Source of the DNA: Amycolatopsis pretoriensis
GTDB taxonomy: Bacteria; Actinomycetota; Actinomycetes; Mycobacteriales; Pseudonocardiaceae
Reading direction: 5' to 3'
DNA: 64,000 nucleotides
NCBI RefSeq assembly: GCF_900107925.1
Contig: NZ_FNUJ01000001.1
Location: 186,001 to 250,000 of the forward strand
A program made the translations under genes and the position numbers. The notes under the pieces are model-generated. The model was not told where the DNA came from. It saw only the letters and a program-made list of their open reading frames with translations, and did not search any database. The first letter of the stretch is position 1. The number at the start of each line of letters is the position of its first letter. Below are positions 33,626-38,055 of the stretch, one piece after another.

Positions 33626-34897
33626 TCACGACCGGAGGACGAACGCGGCGACGTCGAGGCCGAGCTGCCGCCCGGCTTCGTGGTCGATCCGCGTGTGGAC
33701 GCCGGCGACGATCCGGCTGAGCCCGGCCTCGTCGGCGGCGTCCTGGAACGTGGTGAACCGGCGCACCACCCCGGGCAGCGCTTCGGACGTGACGGCCAGG
33801 GGCCACCGCGGTCCGAACTCCTGGCGCAGCACCACCGAACCCGCCTGCGAGACGACGCTGTGCGCGCCGGGGTAGGCCGGGTCGGCCGGGGTGGCGGCGA
33901 GGCTCGACCAGTCGGCGACGGCGTCCGTCGCCGGGTTGCCGTCGTCGCCGGCCAGGCGGATCGCCGTGATCGGGCGCCAGATCCGGTAGTGGTACTTGGC
34001 TTCGTAGAACGCGATCACGGCGTCGGCGAAGGCGAGGTTCAGCCGCGCGAACACCCGCGCCGCGACGAGCAGTCCGGCGTGGGAACCGCCGACGACGGAC
34101 TGCGCGATCTCGTTCCAGTAGTTCCAGATCGGCGCCGCCCAGAACCGCGCCTGCTCGGTCTCGTTCGCGGTGCGGGTGGTGCTGGTGTCCTGTCCGGCCG
34201 CGGCCACCTCGTTCAGCGCCTGCGCGTACCGGGCGCCGGTCAGCGCGGGGTAGGCGCCGGGCCGGAACTGCCCGGCGTGGTCGAGCACGAACGGCGTCAC
34301 GGCGGCCCAGTGGGTGAACGCGGCGGGCGCGAACGCGGGCGGCGCCGGCCGGTACTGCCCCGGCGCGGTGCCCGGCGGGATCGCCGGCGGGACCGCGGCC
34401 GAGCCGTCGTTCGCCCGCAACCCCAGCAGCAGCCGGGCGACGAGCCCACCGGCCCGCACCCCGGCGGCGCGACCCGCCGGGTGCACGCGCGTCAGCTGGC
34501 CGGCCAGCAGGTTCGCGAACTCGCCCGCGCGAGCGGGGTACAGCGCGGCCAGCACGTCGTGCCCGGCCTGCGCCGCGGCCGCCTCGGGGTCCGCCGAGCG
34601 GGGGACGTCGACGGTGAACAGGTACGGCCGCCCGGTCCCGGTCGTCGCGACGACGGCGTCGTGCATCGCCGCGTGCAGCAGGGCGAAGCTCCGGGTCGCG
34701 TGCACGGTCGCGGGTTGCAGGCCGGGCGTGCGCACGGTGGCCAGCAGCTCCCGGTTCCAGGCGAGGACGAAGTCCGCGCCACCCCGCCGGACCGGTGGCG
34801 CCGCGGCGGCGGGCGAGGGCAGGCCGGTGGTGGCGAGCACGGCGGCGGCCGCGCCGCCGGTGACGAACAGGTGCCGGCGCGACATCGATGTGGTCAT
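33626..34897 (-). CDS. Tat-exported vanadium-dependent haloperoxidase/PAP2-like protein
   Basis: A 423-residue protein with a twin-arginine signal (SRRHLFVTGG). The vanadate/phosphate-binding set is present in the C-terminal half: KYHYRIWRPITAIR (Lys and Arg), YPGAHSVVSQAG (Gly-x-His-Ser) and SRIVAGVHTRIDHEAGRQLG (Arg and the apical His). Such extracellular enzymes oxidise halides with peroxide, though some are acid phosphatases. It is divergent from an ECF sigma/Rieske/cupredoxin operon. The mirror-image GTAACC/CGTAT element upstream suggests it belongs to the same regulon. GGGGAGAG precedes the ATG at 34897. Confidence 0.85.
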   Translation of the reverse strand: MTTSMSRRHLFVTGGAAAAVLATTGLPSPAAAAPPVRRGGADFVLAWNRELLATVRTPGLQPATVHATRSFALLHAAMHDAVVATTGTGRPYLFTVDVPRSADPEAAAAQAGHDVLAALYPARAGEFANLLAGQLTRVHPAGRAAGVRAGGLVARLLLGLRANDGSAAVPPAIPPGTAPGQYRPAPPAFAPAAFTHWAAVTPFVLDHAGQFRPGAYPALTGARYAQALNEVAAAGQDTSTTRTANETEQARFWAAPIWNYWNEIAQSVVGGSHAGLLVAARVFARLNLAFADAVIAFYEAKYHYRIWRPITAIRLAGDDGNPATDAVADWSSLAATPADPAYPGAHSVVSQAGSVVLRQEFGPRWPLAVTSEALPGVVRRFTTFQDAADEAGLSRIVAGVHTRIDHEAGRQLGLDVAAFVLRS

Positions 34898-34932
34898 TTC
34901 TCTCCCCGGTTCGGCGGATGGTCCGCTTCCCG

Positions 34933-34969
34933 ATACGGTCCCTGGTTACGGCGTAACCCCGGCTCGTAT
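34933..34969. promoter_or_regulatory. Divergent repeat element of the haloperoxidase/sigma promoters
   Basis: A 37-bp symmetrical element. Reading outward from GGC at the centre, each strand shows GTAACC, six bases, then CGTAT: 34953-34969 toward the sigma gene and 34949-34933 toward the haloperoxidase. A third copy with the same 6-bp spacing is at 36258-36274. GGTTAC to CGTAT is 15 bp, near but not at normal ECF spacing. The element is probably a promoter or operator of the ECF regulon. Confidence 0.65.
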
Positions 34970-35011
34970 CCCTCATCTGGCGGGAAGAATCGGCAGGGGA
35001 GAAAGCGGGCG

Positions 35012-35587
35012 GTGCCGGTGGCACAGCGGTTCCGGCGCAAAAGCGCCGAACAGGACGAAGCGGCACCGAGACCGCGGCTGCACGCCGTCGGCGCGGACGC
35101 CTACCCGGACTGGGAGGCGGTCTACCGCGACAACGTCGACCGCCTGTACCGGTTGATGTTCTCGAAGGTCGGCAACCGGCCCGACGCGGAGGACCTCACC
35201 ACGGAGGTCTTCCTCACGGCGTTGCGGCCGCTGCGCGTCTCGGCGAGCGTCGGCGAAGTCCGGGCCTACCTGCTGGCCACCGCGCGGACCGTGCTGGCCG
35301 GGCACTGGCGGCGCACGCTCGGCCGGGAGATCACCACACTCGACGAAGAGCGTGACATCGCCGCGTTCGAGGAAGGCGTCGTCGACCCGCGCACCCCCGC
35401 GCGCGCCGAGGCGATCCTCGCGCAGCTGCCCGAACGGTACGGCCGCATCCTGCGGCTGCGGTTCCTGCAGGCGTGCTCGCTCAAGGAAGCGGCGGCCGAG
35501 CTGGACATCACCGTCGGCAACGCGAAAGTGTTGCAGCACCGCGCGTTGCGGCAGGCGGCCCAGGTGGCGGAAGGGATGGAGCCGTGA
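35012..35587 (+). CDS. ECF sigma factor
   Basis: A 191-residue sigma-70 factor. Region 2 is WEAVYRDNVDRLYRLMFSKVGNRPDAEDLTTEVF, and region 4 is LPERYGRILRLRFLQACSLKEAAAELDITVGNAKVLQHRAL. It has an extended basic N-terminus. AGGGGAG lies 9 nt before the GTG at 35012; a second GTG at 35018 is possible. The stop overlaps the Rieske gene as GTGA. It lacks a recognisable zinc anti-sigma partner, which makes the coupled Rieske membrane protein the leading candidate for its control. It is probably autoregulated through the element at 34953. Confidence 0.88.
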   Translation: MPVAQRFRRKSAEQDEAAPRPRLHAVGADAYPDWEAVYRDNVDRLYRLMFSKVGNRPDAEDLTTEVFLTALRPLRVSASVGEVRAYLLATARTVLAGHWRRTLGREITTLDEERDIAAFEEGVVDPRTPARAEAILAQLPERYGRILRLRFLQACSLKEAAAELDITVGNAKVLQHRALRQAAQVAEGMEP

Positions 35588-36261
35588 CGACTCGAGGTGT
35601 CCGGCGGTTCGTCAAGGACCTCCTGCGCCGGCGGCGGCCGCGCCCGTTCACGGCCGGGCCCGGCGACGAGGCCGAACTGCGGACCGCGGTGCTGCTGCGC
35701 GCCGCCCGCCCGGGTGCCGGGGCGGCGGGCGAGGAGTTCGTCGCCGATCTGCACCGCCGGCTCGCCCAGGAGCTCGGCGAACCGGCCCCGGCGGGCAACC
35801 GCCGCCGGTTCATCCAGGTGTCGTCGGCCGCCGCGGTGGCGGCCGCCGCCGGCGCGGGCGTCGAATACCTGGTGACGTCCGGTGCCGAACCGGCCGCCGC
35901 GCCAACGCCCGCCGACGACGTCCTGCGGCCGGAGAACGGCGAGTGGCGGGCGGTAGTGGCGGCGCACGACCTGCCCGAAGGCGGCGTGCTGCCGTTCGAC
36001 TTCGGTGCGGTGGCGGGATTCGTGCAGCGTTCCGGCGGACAGGTGCGCGCGGTCTCGGCCACGTGCACGCACCTCGGCTGCCGGCTGAACCTGGACGCCC
36101 CCGCGCGGCGGCTGAACTGCCCGTGCCACCGGACGTCCTTCGCCGTGGACGGCGCGGTCCTCGTGCACCAGCTGCCCGTGACGCCGCCGCCGTTGCCGCA
36201 CCTGGTGGTGCGCGAGGCCGGGGGAGTGGTCGAGGTGCTGGTCCCGTCGGCGGGAGCGTAA
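35584..36261 (+). CDS. Membrane-anchored Rieske [2Fe-2S] protein
   Basis: A 225-residue protein. A cytoplasmic N-terminal segment of about 75 charged residues (RRFVKDLLRRRRPRPF, helix FVADLHRRLAQEL) precedes a twin-arginine-like anchor (RRRFIQVSSAAAVAAAA). The Rieske domain follows with both cluster motifs, CTHLGC and CPCHRTSF, at about residues 160-185. The layout of cytoplasmic domain, one membrane segment and external redox domain copies that of membrane anti-sigma factors. It is translated coupled to the ECF gene. A redox-sensing anti-sigma role is inferred; an electron carrier for the cupredoxin is the alternative. Confidence 0.85.
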   Translation: MTTRGVRRFVKDLLRRRRPRPFTAGPGDEAELRTAVLLRAARPGAGAAGEEFVADLHRRLAQELGEPAPAGNRRRFIQVSSAAAVAAAAGAGVEYLVTSGAEPAAAPTPADDVLRPENGEWRAVVAAHDLPEGGVLPFDFGAVAGFVQRSGGQVRAVSATCTHLGCRLNLDAPARRLNCPCHRTSFAVDGAVLVHQLPVTPPPLPHLVVREAGGVVEVLVPSAGA

Positions 36262-36274
36262 CCCCCGCGCGTAT
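36258..36274 (+). promoter_or_regulatory. Third copy of the GTAACC-N6-CGTAT element
   Basis: GTAACC at 36258-36263 and CGTAT at 36270-36274, with a six-base spacer, upstream of the cupredoxin gene. It overlaps the end of the Rieske gene. CGTAT lies 7 nt before the ATG at 36282. Confidence 0.6.
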
Positions 36275-36281
36275 TCCTGGC

Positions 36282-36698
36282 ATGAGGAATTCCGTTGGGG
36301 TGAAACACTTCCTGCTCGCCGCGGCGGCGGCGCTGGCGCTCACGGCCTGCGCCGCTCAGCCGGCCGCCGCGCCCGCGCCGCCGTCGATGCCCGGGATGGC
36401 GAGCATGACACCGCCGCCGCCACCGGTGGTGACGAACTCGACCGCGAACGCCGTGGCCGTCAAGGAGTTCGCGTTCACGCCGGCCGCGACCACGGTCAAG
36501 GTGGGCACGACCGTCACGTGGACCAACCAGGACCAGGACGCGCACACCGTCACCAGTACCGGGTCCGGCGGCCCGCTGCGCTCGCCGACCCTCCAAACCG
36601 GACAGTCCTACCAGTACACGTTCAGCACGCCCGGCACGTTCGGCTACCTCTGCACGATCCACCCGTTCATGACCGCCACCGTGACGGTGACGCCGTGA
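36282..36698 (+). CDS. Cupredoxin-domain lipoprotein
   Basis: A 138-residue exported protein. The signal peptide ends in the lipobox LTAC with Cys23, then a Pro/Ala/Met-rich linker. The cupredoxin fold has type 1 copper ligands His (DAHTVTS), Cys and His (CTIHPFM) and Met at the end of the same motif. It should carry one electron outside the membrane, a plausible partner for the Rieske protein. The ATG at 36282 would be leaderless if CGTAT is a -10 box; a GTG at 36300 with GAGGAA before it is an alternative. Its stop overlaps the next GTG. Confidence 0.85.
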   Translation: MRNSVGVKHFLLAAAAALALTACAAQPAAAPAPPSMPGMASMTPPPPPVVTNSTANAVAVKEFAFTPAATTVKVGTTVTWTNQDQDAHTVTSTGSGGPLRSPTLQTGQSYQYTFSTPGTFGYLCTIHPFMTATVTVTP

Positions 36699-37633
36699 GC
36701 GACGAAGACGGCAACCCCGAAGGCATGACCCGGCGCCAGCTGCTGCGCCACACCGCGTGGTTCGGCGCCGCGGTCGTCCTGACGGTGTCCGGCGGCGAAG
36801 TGCTCAGCCGGCTCGCCGGACCGGGCGAGGCCGTCGCCGCCGACGACCCGAACGCGCTGCGGTTCGTCCAGATCAGCGACAGCCACCTCGGCTTCACCGG
36901 CCCCGCCAACACCGCCGTCGAGTCGTCGTTCTCCCAGGCGCTCACCCAGATCAACGGGCTCGGGTACCGCCCGGACTTCGTCATGCACACCGGCGACCTG
37001 ACGCACCTGTCGACCCCGGCCCAGTTCGACCAGGTCAAGCAGATGCTGGGCACGCTGGACACCGGGCACGTGTCCACGGTGCCCGGCGAGCACGACTCGA
37101 TCGACGACGCGGGGCAGAAGTACCGCGCGGCGTTCGGGGCGGGCACCGCGGGCGACGGCTGGTACAGCTTCGACGTCAAGGGCGTCCACTTCATCGCGCT
37201 GGTCAACACCCTCAGCCTGGAGAAGCTCGGCCACCTCGGGCCGGACCAGCTCGAGTTCGTCCGCAAGGACGTCGCGAAACTCGGTGCGGACACGCCGATC
37301 GTGGTGTTCAGCCACATCCCGCTGTTCGCGATGTACCCGGCGTGGGGCTGGGGCACCGACGACGCCACCCAGGCCCTGTCGTACCTGCGGCGGTTCTCGT
37401 CGGTGACCTGCCTCAACGGACACGTGCACCAGTTGTTCACGAAGACCGAAGGCACCATCACCTTCCACAGCGCGACGACGACCGCGTACCCCTTGCCCCA
37501 GCCGGGAACGCGCCCCGCGCCCACGCCGGTGACGCTGCCCGCGGGCAAGCTCGCGGACGCGCTCGGCATCCGCGAAGTGACCTACCGGCCGGGCACGCCG
37601 GGCCTCGCGGTGAAGGACGTGAAGCTGGCATGA
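36695..37633 (+). CDS. Tat-exported calcineurin-like metallophosphoesterase
   Basis: A 312-residue protein. The twin-arginine signal TRRQLLRHTAWFG begins at about residue 12. The metallophosphoesterase motifs follow in order: VQISDSHLG, MHTGDLTH, VPGEHD (Asn/Glu position altered from the usual GNHD), VVFSHIPLF and LNGHVHQLF. It binds two metals and should hydrolyse a phosphoester in the cell-wall space. The GTG at 36695 overlaps the cupredoxin stop. It is the fourth gene of the ECF/Rieske operon and is coupled to the next by ATGA. Confidence 0.85.
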   Translation: MSDEDGNPEGMTRRQLLRHTAWFGAAVVLTVSGGEVLSRLAGPGEAVAADDPNALRFVQISDSHLGFTGPANTAVESSFSQALTQINGLGYRPDFVMHTGDLTHLSTPAQFDQVKQMLGTLDTGHVSTVPGEHDSIDDAGQKYRAAFGAGTAGDGWYSFDVKGVHFIALVNTLSLEKLGHLGPDQLEFVRKDVAKLGADTPIVVFSHIPLFAMYPAWGWGTDDATQALSYLRRFSSVTCLNGHVHQLFTKTEGTITFHSATTTAYPLPQPGTRPAPTPVTLPAGKLADALGIREVTYRPGTPGLAVKDVKLA

Positions 37634-38055
37634 ACGTCCTCCTGCGTTTCGCGACGGCGGCGTGCCTCGGGGTCAGCGGCTACGTCCACGCCCAGCTCTA
37701 CGTCGACGGGTACCGCGTGATCCCGGTGATCGGGCCGGCCTTCCTGCTGCAGGCCGCGGGGGCGCTCGCCGTGGCGATCCTGGTGCTGGCGGGTGGCCCG
37801 CCGCTCATCCGGCTGGCGGCGGCCGGCCTGGCGGCGGGAGCGCTGGCGGGGTTCGTGCTGTCGCGGACCACCGGGTTGTTCGGCTTCTCCGAACGCGGGT
37901 TCCGGCCCGCGCCGCAAGCACTCGTGAGCGTGCTCGCGGAGGTCGCGGTGCTGGTCCTCGTCGCGGTCGCGGTCCTCCTCGCCCGCCGGTCACCGCAGGT
38001 ACGAGGCACCGTTGACGTCGAGGACCGCACCGGAACTCCACACGGCCCCGGGTGA
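37630..38055 (+). CDS. Four-helix membrane protein
   Basis: A 141-residue protein with hydrophobic segments at about residues 3-20, 32-54, 58-78 and 92-115. The short HAQLY segment after helix 1 and an FGFSERGF loop are notable. I do not recognise a family with certainty; similar small proteins occur beside cupredoxin genes. It ends the ECF operon, and its last 22 codons overlap the convergent SDR gene by 66 bp. A shorter C-terminus is therefore possible if the real gene was longer or shifted. Confidence 0.65.
   Translation: MNVLLRFATAACLGVSGYVHAQLYVDGYRVIPVIGPAFLLQAAGALAVAILVLAGGPPLIRLAAAGLAAGALAGFVLSRTTGLFGFSERGFRPAPQALVSVLAEVAVLVLVAVAVLLARRSPQVRGTVDVEDRTGTPHGPG

Follow-up and report, generated by a model that had tools for sequence, protein, structure and literature searches.

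Sigma/anti-sigma pairs are a main bacterial route by which signals pass through the membrane, and to our knowledge it is not known what most of these pairs sense. In the RskA/RseA type, the anti-sigma gene directly follows the sigma gene and encodes a cytoplasmic N-terminal part, one membrane segment, and an outer sensor. We analyzed a locus with a similar layout in a 64,000-nt stretch of Amycolatopsis pretoriensis DNA (contig NZ_FNUJ01000001.1, positions 186,001 to 250,000 of the forward strand; hereafter the window, with positions numbered from its first letter), in which an extracytoplasmic function (ECF) sigma factor gene is coupled to the gene for a Rieske protein. Our analysis suggests that this near-obligate pair is probably a sigma factor with a membrane-anchored Rieske anti-sigma factor, and that the sigma factor would drive its own operon, a cupredoxin operon, and a divergent haloperoxidase gene from a common sequence.

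Several described systems resemble this locus in part. The accessible portion of PMC7406223 gives class I anti-sigma domains, the RskA/RseA type, four helices and class III domains, the RsbN type, three, while the BldN promoter is described as CGTAAC-N16-CGTTGA in the accessible portion of PMC2375139. A redox-controlled anti-sigma factor is documented in actinomycetes for RsrA and sigma R (PMC4960319, in the portion available); here, a [2Fe-2S] cluster would instead do the sensing, outside the membrane. CorE-type ECF sigma factors are metal- or redox-controlled and sense copper through their own C-terminal extension (PMC8999054, portion available), whereas the present sigma factor has 191 amino acids and shows two sigma regions only in Pfam. 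That same portion describes for ECF58 a conserved neighbor with an iron-sulfur binding domain (with DUF3470), calls its regulation uncharacterized, places ECF58 among the ECFs without an anti-sigma factor, and names DUF3470 but no Rieske domain; the likeness to our locus, compared by description only, is that of a sigma factor with an iron-sulfur neighbor. Among the papers listed by literature searches for Rieske proteins together with anti-sigma or ECF sigma factors, none dealt with such a protein, though the published ECF reclassification may list it, and the word Rieske is absent from the available text of PMC8999054, PMC8103513, and PMC7406223. What is new is most likely, judging from the genes, the Rieske [2Fe-2S] sensor, placed on a sigma/anti-sigma switch of a known kind whose promoter would be unusual.

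In the actinomycete genomes sampled, the sigma gene almost always occurs with the Rieske gene. At this locus, the sigma gene (35012..35587, plus strand) is followed by the Rieske gene (35584..36261, plus strand, 225 amino acids), which begins with GTG and shares its first 4 bp with the end of the sigma gene. Among 24 loci of a separate collection, found by their Rieske protein, the sigma gene lay directly upstream in every case, which bears out the coupling of the two genes proposed in an earlier note on this DNA. A Rieske-frame ATG or GTG overlapped the sigma stop by 4 bp in 53/57 distinct loci, with starts as predicted; these 57 remained for comparison once eight duplicates, two Rieske fragments without a sigma gene (L123 and L124), and L129 had been removed. 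Near full-length Rieske relatives were detected in 25/397 genomes of the order (356 have some Rieske match, as read from the result table), and the sigma factor, at E 1e-35, in 27/394, including all 25 Rieske-bearing genomes. Class samples yielded the Rieske protein in 26/394 and the sigma factor in 26/384, in the same 26 genomes. As the order and class lists overlap by nine genomes, there are 44 distinct genomes with the sigma factor and 42 with the Rieske protein. The two genes were on different contigs in G546 and G675, whose assemblies are fragmented. Read from the genes, adjacency, overlap, and co-occurrence are those of a same-operon sigma partner, as expected of an anti-sigma factor. 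The closest named relatives of the Rieske protein are from Amycolatopsis, and A. mediterranei encodes a relative; a second, diverged pair occurs in the same genus (L090, G282:C1:3302000-3312000; Rieske 46% and sigma 57% identity), with no site of the common sequence in the stretch examined.

The sigma factor scored above the Pfam cut-offs for PF04542 (33.7 bits), PF04545 (38.8 bits), and PF08281 (40.9 bits), covering Sigma70_r2 and Sigma70_r4_2, and matched no other Pfam family. Possession of regions 2 and 4 without other sigma regions marks it as an ECF sigma factor. Its best NCBIfam model was TIGR02952, the BldN family, at 68.4 bits, far under the equivalog cut-off of 206.45; BldN is thus the nearest named family, and membership is not reached.

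The Rieske protein has three parts. Its Rieske [2Fe-2S] domain (residues 116-219; 35929..36240, plus strand) matched PF00355 at E 4.6e-12 (46.1 bits, cut-off 20.3) and was modeled confidently by AlphaFold2, with block means of the predicted local distance difference test (pLDDT) of 96-98 over residues 121-220. The cluster ligands C161, H163, C179, and H182 were invariant in 65 sequences in the CxH...CxxH arrangement of Rieske proteins, as were the disulfide cysteines C166 and C181. Upstream of this domain, residues 72-95 (35797..35868, plus strand) form a twin-arginine segment (TAT_signal model TIGR01409, E 0.00059, 20.1 bits, cut-off 16.7) that by its sequence is a signal or anchor and would place the Rieske domain outside the membrane. 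The N-terminal domain (residues 1-64; 35584..35775, plus strand), which we propose binds the sigma factor, has predicted helices at residues 3-14, 29-41, and 50-64 (AlphaFold2 block means 80-91, residues 1-60). Conservation was as high in these helices (0.69-0.73) as in the Rieske domain (0.70), compared to 0.36 and 0.32 in the linkers flanking the twin-arginine segment. Unlike RskA/RseA, the protein carries a Rieske [2Fe-2S] domain as its outer part; its N-terminal domain, with three predicted helices instead of four and no Pfam match, does not qualify as a class I anti-sigma domain. The Rieske protein is most likely, on the evidence of its sequence and gene context, the anti-sigma factor of its neighbor, a sharper assignment than that of one more redox protein.

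Two genomes, G100 and G107 (loci L219 and L220), provided further insight into the N-terminal domain. Both have the sigma factor, and in both the Rieske partner is replaced by a protein with another outer domain, whose match to the Rieske protein is confined to N-terminal residues (tblastn 8e-8 and 1e-7) and which also has a hydrophobic segment, identified by eye. A Pfam search of the two partners found no Rieske match. They matched the anti-sigma models NF052375 (E 3.8e-7 and 6.9e-9) and PRK13920 (7e-6 and 1e-6), and the L220 partner matched RskA_C (0.012), with all of these scores under the cut-offs. The Rieske ligand pattern occurred in 0/120 matches listed of the partner's 531 relatives (E 1e-4), compared to 118/120 matches listed for the Rieske protein. 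When N-terminal profiles of the Rieske protein and the partner were compared with hhalign, they aligned at probability 99.5 and score 107, whereas 100 column shuffles reached a maximum of 21 and the reversed profile 11.7. Both genomes retain the promoter-type sequence described below before the sigma gene. Because the L219 and L220 partners share the N-terminal domain only, it is this domain, as judged from the alignments, that accompanies the sigma factor, and the outer domain can be exchanged. This pattern is what an anti-sigma factor with an exchanged sensor would look like, and a pair of partners that agree in the N-terminal domain but differ in the outer one offers a clean way to test which part senses.

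Some observations on the Rieske protein weigh against this assignment. AlphaFold2 confidence was low at residues 72-105, with no confident membrane helix at 72-95, and the N-terminal domain had no match over any Pfam cut-off. The pair resembles RsbN and BldN in the three helices and in BldN being the best-matching sigma family, but RsbN-like (class III) homology was dropped: with DUF5667 proteins, chosen by resemblance, standing for RsbN, a first loose profile comparison gave a probability of 70 and a cleaner one 3.6, the latter with a score of 16.7 versus 16.9 for the reversed control, which it failed. Finally, in a mirror-tree analysis of 49 pairs, the partial correlation with the sigma factor was 0.42 for the N-terminal domain and 0.64 for the Rieske domain.

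The mirror-tree result, which favors the Rieske domain, speaks for an alternative: the Rieske protein would carry electrons for the cupredoxin without being an anti-sigma factor, and would only share a transcript with a sigma factor under some other control. The invariance of all ligands and disulfide cysteines is in keeping with this, since respiratory Rieske proteins likewise have them, and the cupredoxin and DoxX neighbors are proteins of the electron-transfer type. The Rieske proteins of cytochrome b6f and bc1 (PetC, QcrA) also have the Rieske domain, with these ligands and cysteines, after an N-terminal anchor. However, the protein scored 34.4 and 26.6 against the corresponding models, with cut-offs of 250 and 275, and differs from them by its extra N-terminal domain and its sigma gene partner. 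A carrier would leave unexplained the conserved N-terminal domain, the 4-bp overlap, and the near-obligate pairing, as well as a partner that lacks the Rieske domain yet has this N-terminal domain and matches anti-sigma models. We therefore consider a carrier role quite unlikely and retain the anti-sigma assignment.

We next turned to the sequence shared by the transcription units of this locus. A pattern search of the 10.3-Mb genome gave exactly three matches to CGTAACC-N6-CGTAT and none to its reversed pattern. The three sites precede the sigma-Rieske operon (CGTAACCCCGGCTCGTAT, 34952..34969, plus strand), the cupredoxin operon (CGTAACCCCCGCGCGTAT, 36257..36274, plus strand, overlapping the Rieske stop codon), and the divergent haloperoxidase gene (CGTAACCAGGGACCGTAT, 34933..34950, minus strand). 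Allowing up to one mismatch, the window held 3 occurrences versus 0.08 expected. In a one-mismatch scan of the genome, 7 further sites were found versus 4 for the reversed pattern, so the further sites are mostly chance. One of them (L221:1306, G000:C16:353805) precedes a small secreted-type protein (CGPTYEQDSAGSLGTPFTLKS...) that by eye resembles the one behind the G338 site (L166). The two divergent sites join at 34945-34957 as a perfect inverted repeat, GTTACG-g-CGTAAC.

Since the same promoter-type sequence precedes all three units, the haloperoxidase gene is very probably, on this evidence, in one regulon with the sigma and cupredoxin units. The earlier note had listed six genes here, and all six were recovered at its positions using open reading frames, Pfam, and PDB searches: haloperoxidase-type, ECF sigma, Rieske, cupredoxin, metallophosphoesterase-family, and membrane protein genes. 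Its start at 34898 falls in the intergenic region ahead of the sigma gene at 35012. The gene-order survey that it had called for showed that the order recurs in relatives, with cupredoxin and phosphoesterase genes downstream in 16/24 loci of the separate collection. Its suggestion of a joint response stood insofar as the haloperoxidase, sigma, and cupredoxin units carry one promoter-type sequence, while a halogen signal, which it had also raised, is no evident common denominator, because the cupredoxin-phosphoesterase set is present in most lineages and DoxX in some. It could be argued that this is an ordinary neighborhood, a stray sigma factor beside unrelated exported enzymes, as haloperoxidase adjacency is mostly confined to one genus (10/11 loci). 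This explanation is extremely improbable: exact sites occur only at these genes in 10.3 Mb, synteny is conserved across families, and the fixed 6-bp gap speaks against it as well. The adjacency of sigma and Rieske genes in 24/24 loci and the sequence tying three transcription units argue that the locus is not a chance grouping.

A relaxed form of the sequence gave 92 sites in the 57 loci, versus 0 for its reversed form. A relaxed site lay up to 700 bp upstream of the sigma gene in 40/57 loci, upstream of the cupredoxin gene in 34/42, and within 300 bp of the haloperoxidase gene in 10/11, where 10 of these 11 loci are from Amycolatopsis. Within these distances, six loci were without a site, among them L020, which has one before the gene upstream of the sigma gene. 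Sites likewise precede the gene directly upstream of the sigma gene in two other Mycobacteriaceae loci, L023 and L024; its product is DoxX according to Pfam (L020 and L023) or by resemblance (L024). In L080, a site lies at a distance similar to that in these three loci. The cupredoxin, phosphoesterase, and membrane protein genes are absent from L009, and so is the cupredoxin site; L011, with a damaged cupredoxin region, retains the site. L220, from another lineage, has a haloperoxidase gene (49% identity over 111 residues) that is preceded by a site at a distance of 80 nt.

The spacing within the sequence was essentially fixed. In 585,606 bases, GTAACC and C[C/G]TAT paired 70 times at a gap of 6 bp and not once at gaps of 0-5 or 7-25 bp, with 0.07 expected per gap. 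Aligning 85 sites on GTAACC revealed no conserved -35 element: positions -35 to -3 all carried 0.23 bits or less, and in the 59 sites outside Amycolatopsis 0.42 bits or less; values inside the sequence are inflated, as the sequence itself was used for selection. In 18 cupredoxin genes with a lipobox present by eye, left from 24 rows after removal of six that were not cupredoxin starts, the ATG lies 24-25 nt from GTAACC. At this locus, it lies 24 nt from the G of GTAACC, which leaves a leader no room, so the cupredoxin mRNA here is probably leaderless, as far as the sequence indicates. If the RNA starts at the ATG, C[C/G]TAT would occupy the usual -10 position and GTAACC would lie near -24, with no -35.

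ECF promoters usually have about 16 bp between -35 and -10. A normal ECF promoter, with GTAACC as the -35 and a -10 located 16-18 bp on, was considered and rejected: the downstream block at that distance is weak and variable in position, and the 18 cupredoxin ATGs lie upstream of the RNA start that such a promoter would give. The shared first block, CGTAAC, is that of BldN, but the second block lies 6 bp on in all 70 exact pairs, versus 16 bp in BldN, so the sites do not match the BldN promoter. By analogy, the first block looks like something that a sigma factor of the BldN kind would read, at the wrong distance. A bolder reading, which we offer only tentatively, is that a Rieske [2Fe-2S] anti-sigma factor releases an ECF sigma factor that recognizes a promoter unlike the usual sigma-70-type ones, with GTAACC near -24, C[C/G]TAT as the -10, a 6-bp gap, and no -35. 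Its geometry would be -24/-12-like within the sigma-70 family, and the anti-sigma factor would be the first with a redox cluster outside the membrane. If it is a promoter, the fixed 6-bp gap would test how far sigma-70-type recognition can depart from -35/-10.

To place the sequence in a wider context, we compared two hand-chosen sets of genomes, a selection that counsels caution. [CT]GTAACC-N6-C[CG]TAT gave 48 sites versus 10 reversed in 30 genomes with the locus (30 of the 42 pair-bearing genomes), and 3 sites versus 6 reversed in 30 genomes without a full Rieske relative. We inspected the downstream genes for the 17/48 sites that fall outside the locus. Six precede secreted-type proteins by eye (L162, L163, L164, L166, L169, and L170), with L178 maybe another; those of L163 and L170, from two genera, we take to be HAF-repeat-like. 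The outside site in G187 (L171) precedes a Rieske-like lipoprotein readable in two frames, and that in G004 (L172, G004:C1:2900356) precedes a homologue of the membrane protein, whose ATG lies 25 nt from GTAACC. Behind the L172 homologue lie, by eye, a further ECF sigma gene and the gene for a protein whose N-terminus is zinc anti-sigma-like, which may form a cascade.

Not all of the data on the sequence agree with its use by this sigma factor. The 6-bp gap misfits the usual spacing between -35 and -10 of about 16 bp (N16 for BldN), 17/57 sigma genes have no site in 700 bp, five loci have no site at all, and the exact site is absent from 4/30 pair-bearing genomes. Allowing C as the last base brought up four matches at a 5-bp gap: L087, L088, and L089 each have one before the divergent cupredoxin gene, and the fourth lies elsewhere in L089; because three of them precede divergent cupredoxin genes, the spacing in these loci may be 5 bp. 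In addition, L129 (G923:C129:14000-25000), from another class, has cupredoxin (50% identity) and phosphoesterase (59% identity) genes without the sigma-Rieske pair, and no site in 11 kb.

An alternative is an unlinked transcription factor that targets only these genes, with the common sequence as its operator and the sigma factor using other promoters. As a 6-bp gap is not that of a normal sigma promoter, this is a live rival, and the contrast between genomes with and without the locus is also what a factor with few targets would produce. Yet the sigma factor is the sole recognized DNA-binding protein in the common gene set, and the sequence follows it to loci with other genes, both those with DoxX (L020, L023, and L024) and the Rieske-less ones (L219 and L220). 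Moreover, CGTAAC is the first block of the related BldN promoter (PMC2375139, in the portion available). On balance, we regard an unlinked regulator as unlikely, and favor the sigma factor as reader of the sequence.

Together, these features suggest how the switch could work. The N-terminal domain (residues 1-64) would stay in the cytoplasm and hold the sigma factor, while the twin-arginine segment (72-95) would take the folded [2Fe-2S] Rieske domain across the membrane. A redox change of the cluster, or its loss, would then release the sigma factor, with an oxidant reaching the cluster directly or the signal arriving via the cupredoxin or the quinone pool. The freed sigma factor, as the putative reader of the common sequence, would turn up its own operon together with the cupredoxin, phosphoesterase-type, and membrane proteins, as well as the haloperoxidase in Amycolatopsis and some others. 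If this is true, a Rieske cluster reads the redox state outside the membrane or that of an electron-transfer chain, and the cell answers with exported copper, phosphoesterase-type, and haloperoxidase-type proteins that are switched on together.

The signal itself may be an oxidant, quinone, or copper. The commoner targets across lineages, the cupredoxin set or DoxX, are as suggestive of electron transfer or copper as of halogen oxidants. Accordingly, the sigma/anti-sigma switch could respond to copper or to the state of the quinone pool rather than to peroxide or hypohalite, with the haloperoxidase as a late recruit. Respiratory and photosynthetic chains bring Rieske and blue-copper proteins together, the haloperoxidase gene is a rarer target than the cupredoxin, phosphoesterase, and membrane protein genes, and DoxX heads the operon in some Mycobacteriaceae. 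Against a late recruitment, the haloperoxidase shares the site in three lineages (Amycolatopsis, L110, and L220), the only ones in which a haloperoxidase with a site was seen adjoining the pair in a search limited to the locus surroundings. We consider a copper or quinone signal a serious possibility, although short of an even chance.

Some of the exported proteins show departures from their relatives. The divergent gene (33626..34897, minus strand) encodes a vanadium haloperoxidase-family protein of the twin-arginine translocation (Tat) type, which matched the vanadium-dependent haloperoxidase PDB 4cit (E 3.5e-28); its PAP2 match of 23.3 bits was under the cut-off of 27.2. The vanadate ligands of these enzymes are contributed by K, RP, PSGH, R, and H motifs. 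Alignment with 1idq matched the vanadate-site K, R, H, R, and H, with the PSGH of chloroperoxidase replaced by PGAH here and in the seven orthologues inspected, so its activity may differ from that of vanadium chloroperoxidase.

The cupredoxin lipoprotein gene (36282..36698, plus strand; PF00127 and PF13473, with start and lipobox assigned by eye) encodes the His, Cys-x-x-His-x-x-Met pattern of a type-1 copper site. The pattern was present in 39/43 sequences, and the other four retain C-x-x-H-x-x-M and miss its first part. Next is the gene for a Tat-type metallophosphoesterase-family protein (36695..37633, plus strand; PF00149, 38.8 bits, cut-off 21.5), which resembles cyclic-nucleotide phosphodiesterases with scores under the cut-off. 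Metallophosphoesterases have a metal-binding motif, GNH(D/E), in which the Asn serves as a metal ligand in relatives like Rv0805. In place of this motif, 40/41 orthologues have PGEHD, compared to PGNHD in the PDB relative. Because of this replacement, the metal site, and perhaps the reaction, would differ from those of cyclic-nucleotide phosphodiesterases.

The last gene (37630..38055, plus strand) encodes a small membrane protein that had no Pfam match and for which a fold search returned nothing at E 0.001. AlphaFold2 predicted four long helices (pLDDT 89), and 18 columns were invariant in 29 sequences. By eye, the 3' end of a convergent gene of the short-chain dehydrogenase/reductase (SDR) type overlaps the end of the membrane protein gene at 37990-38055.

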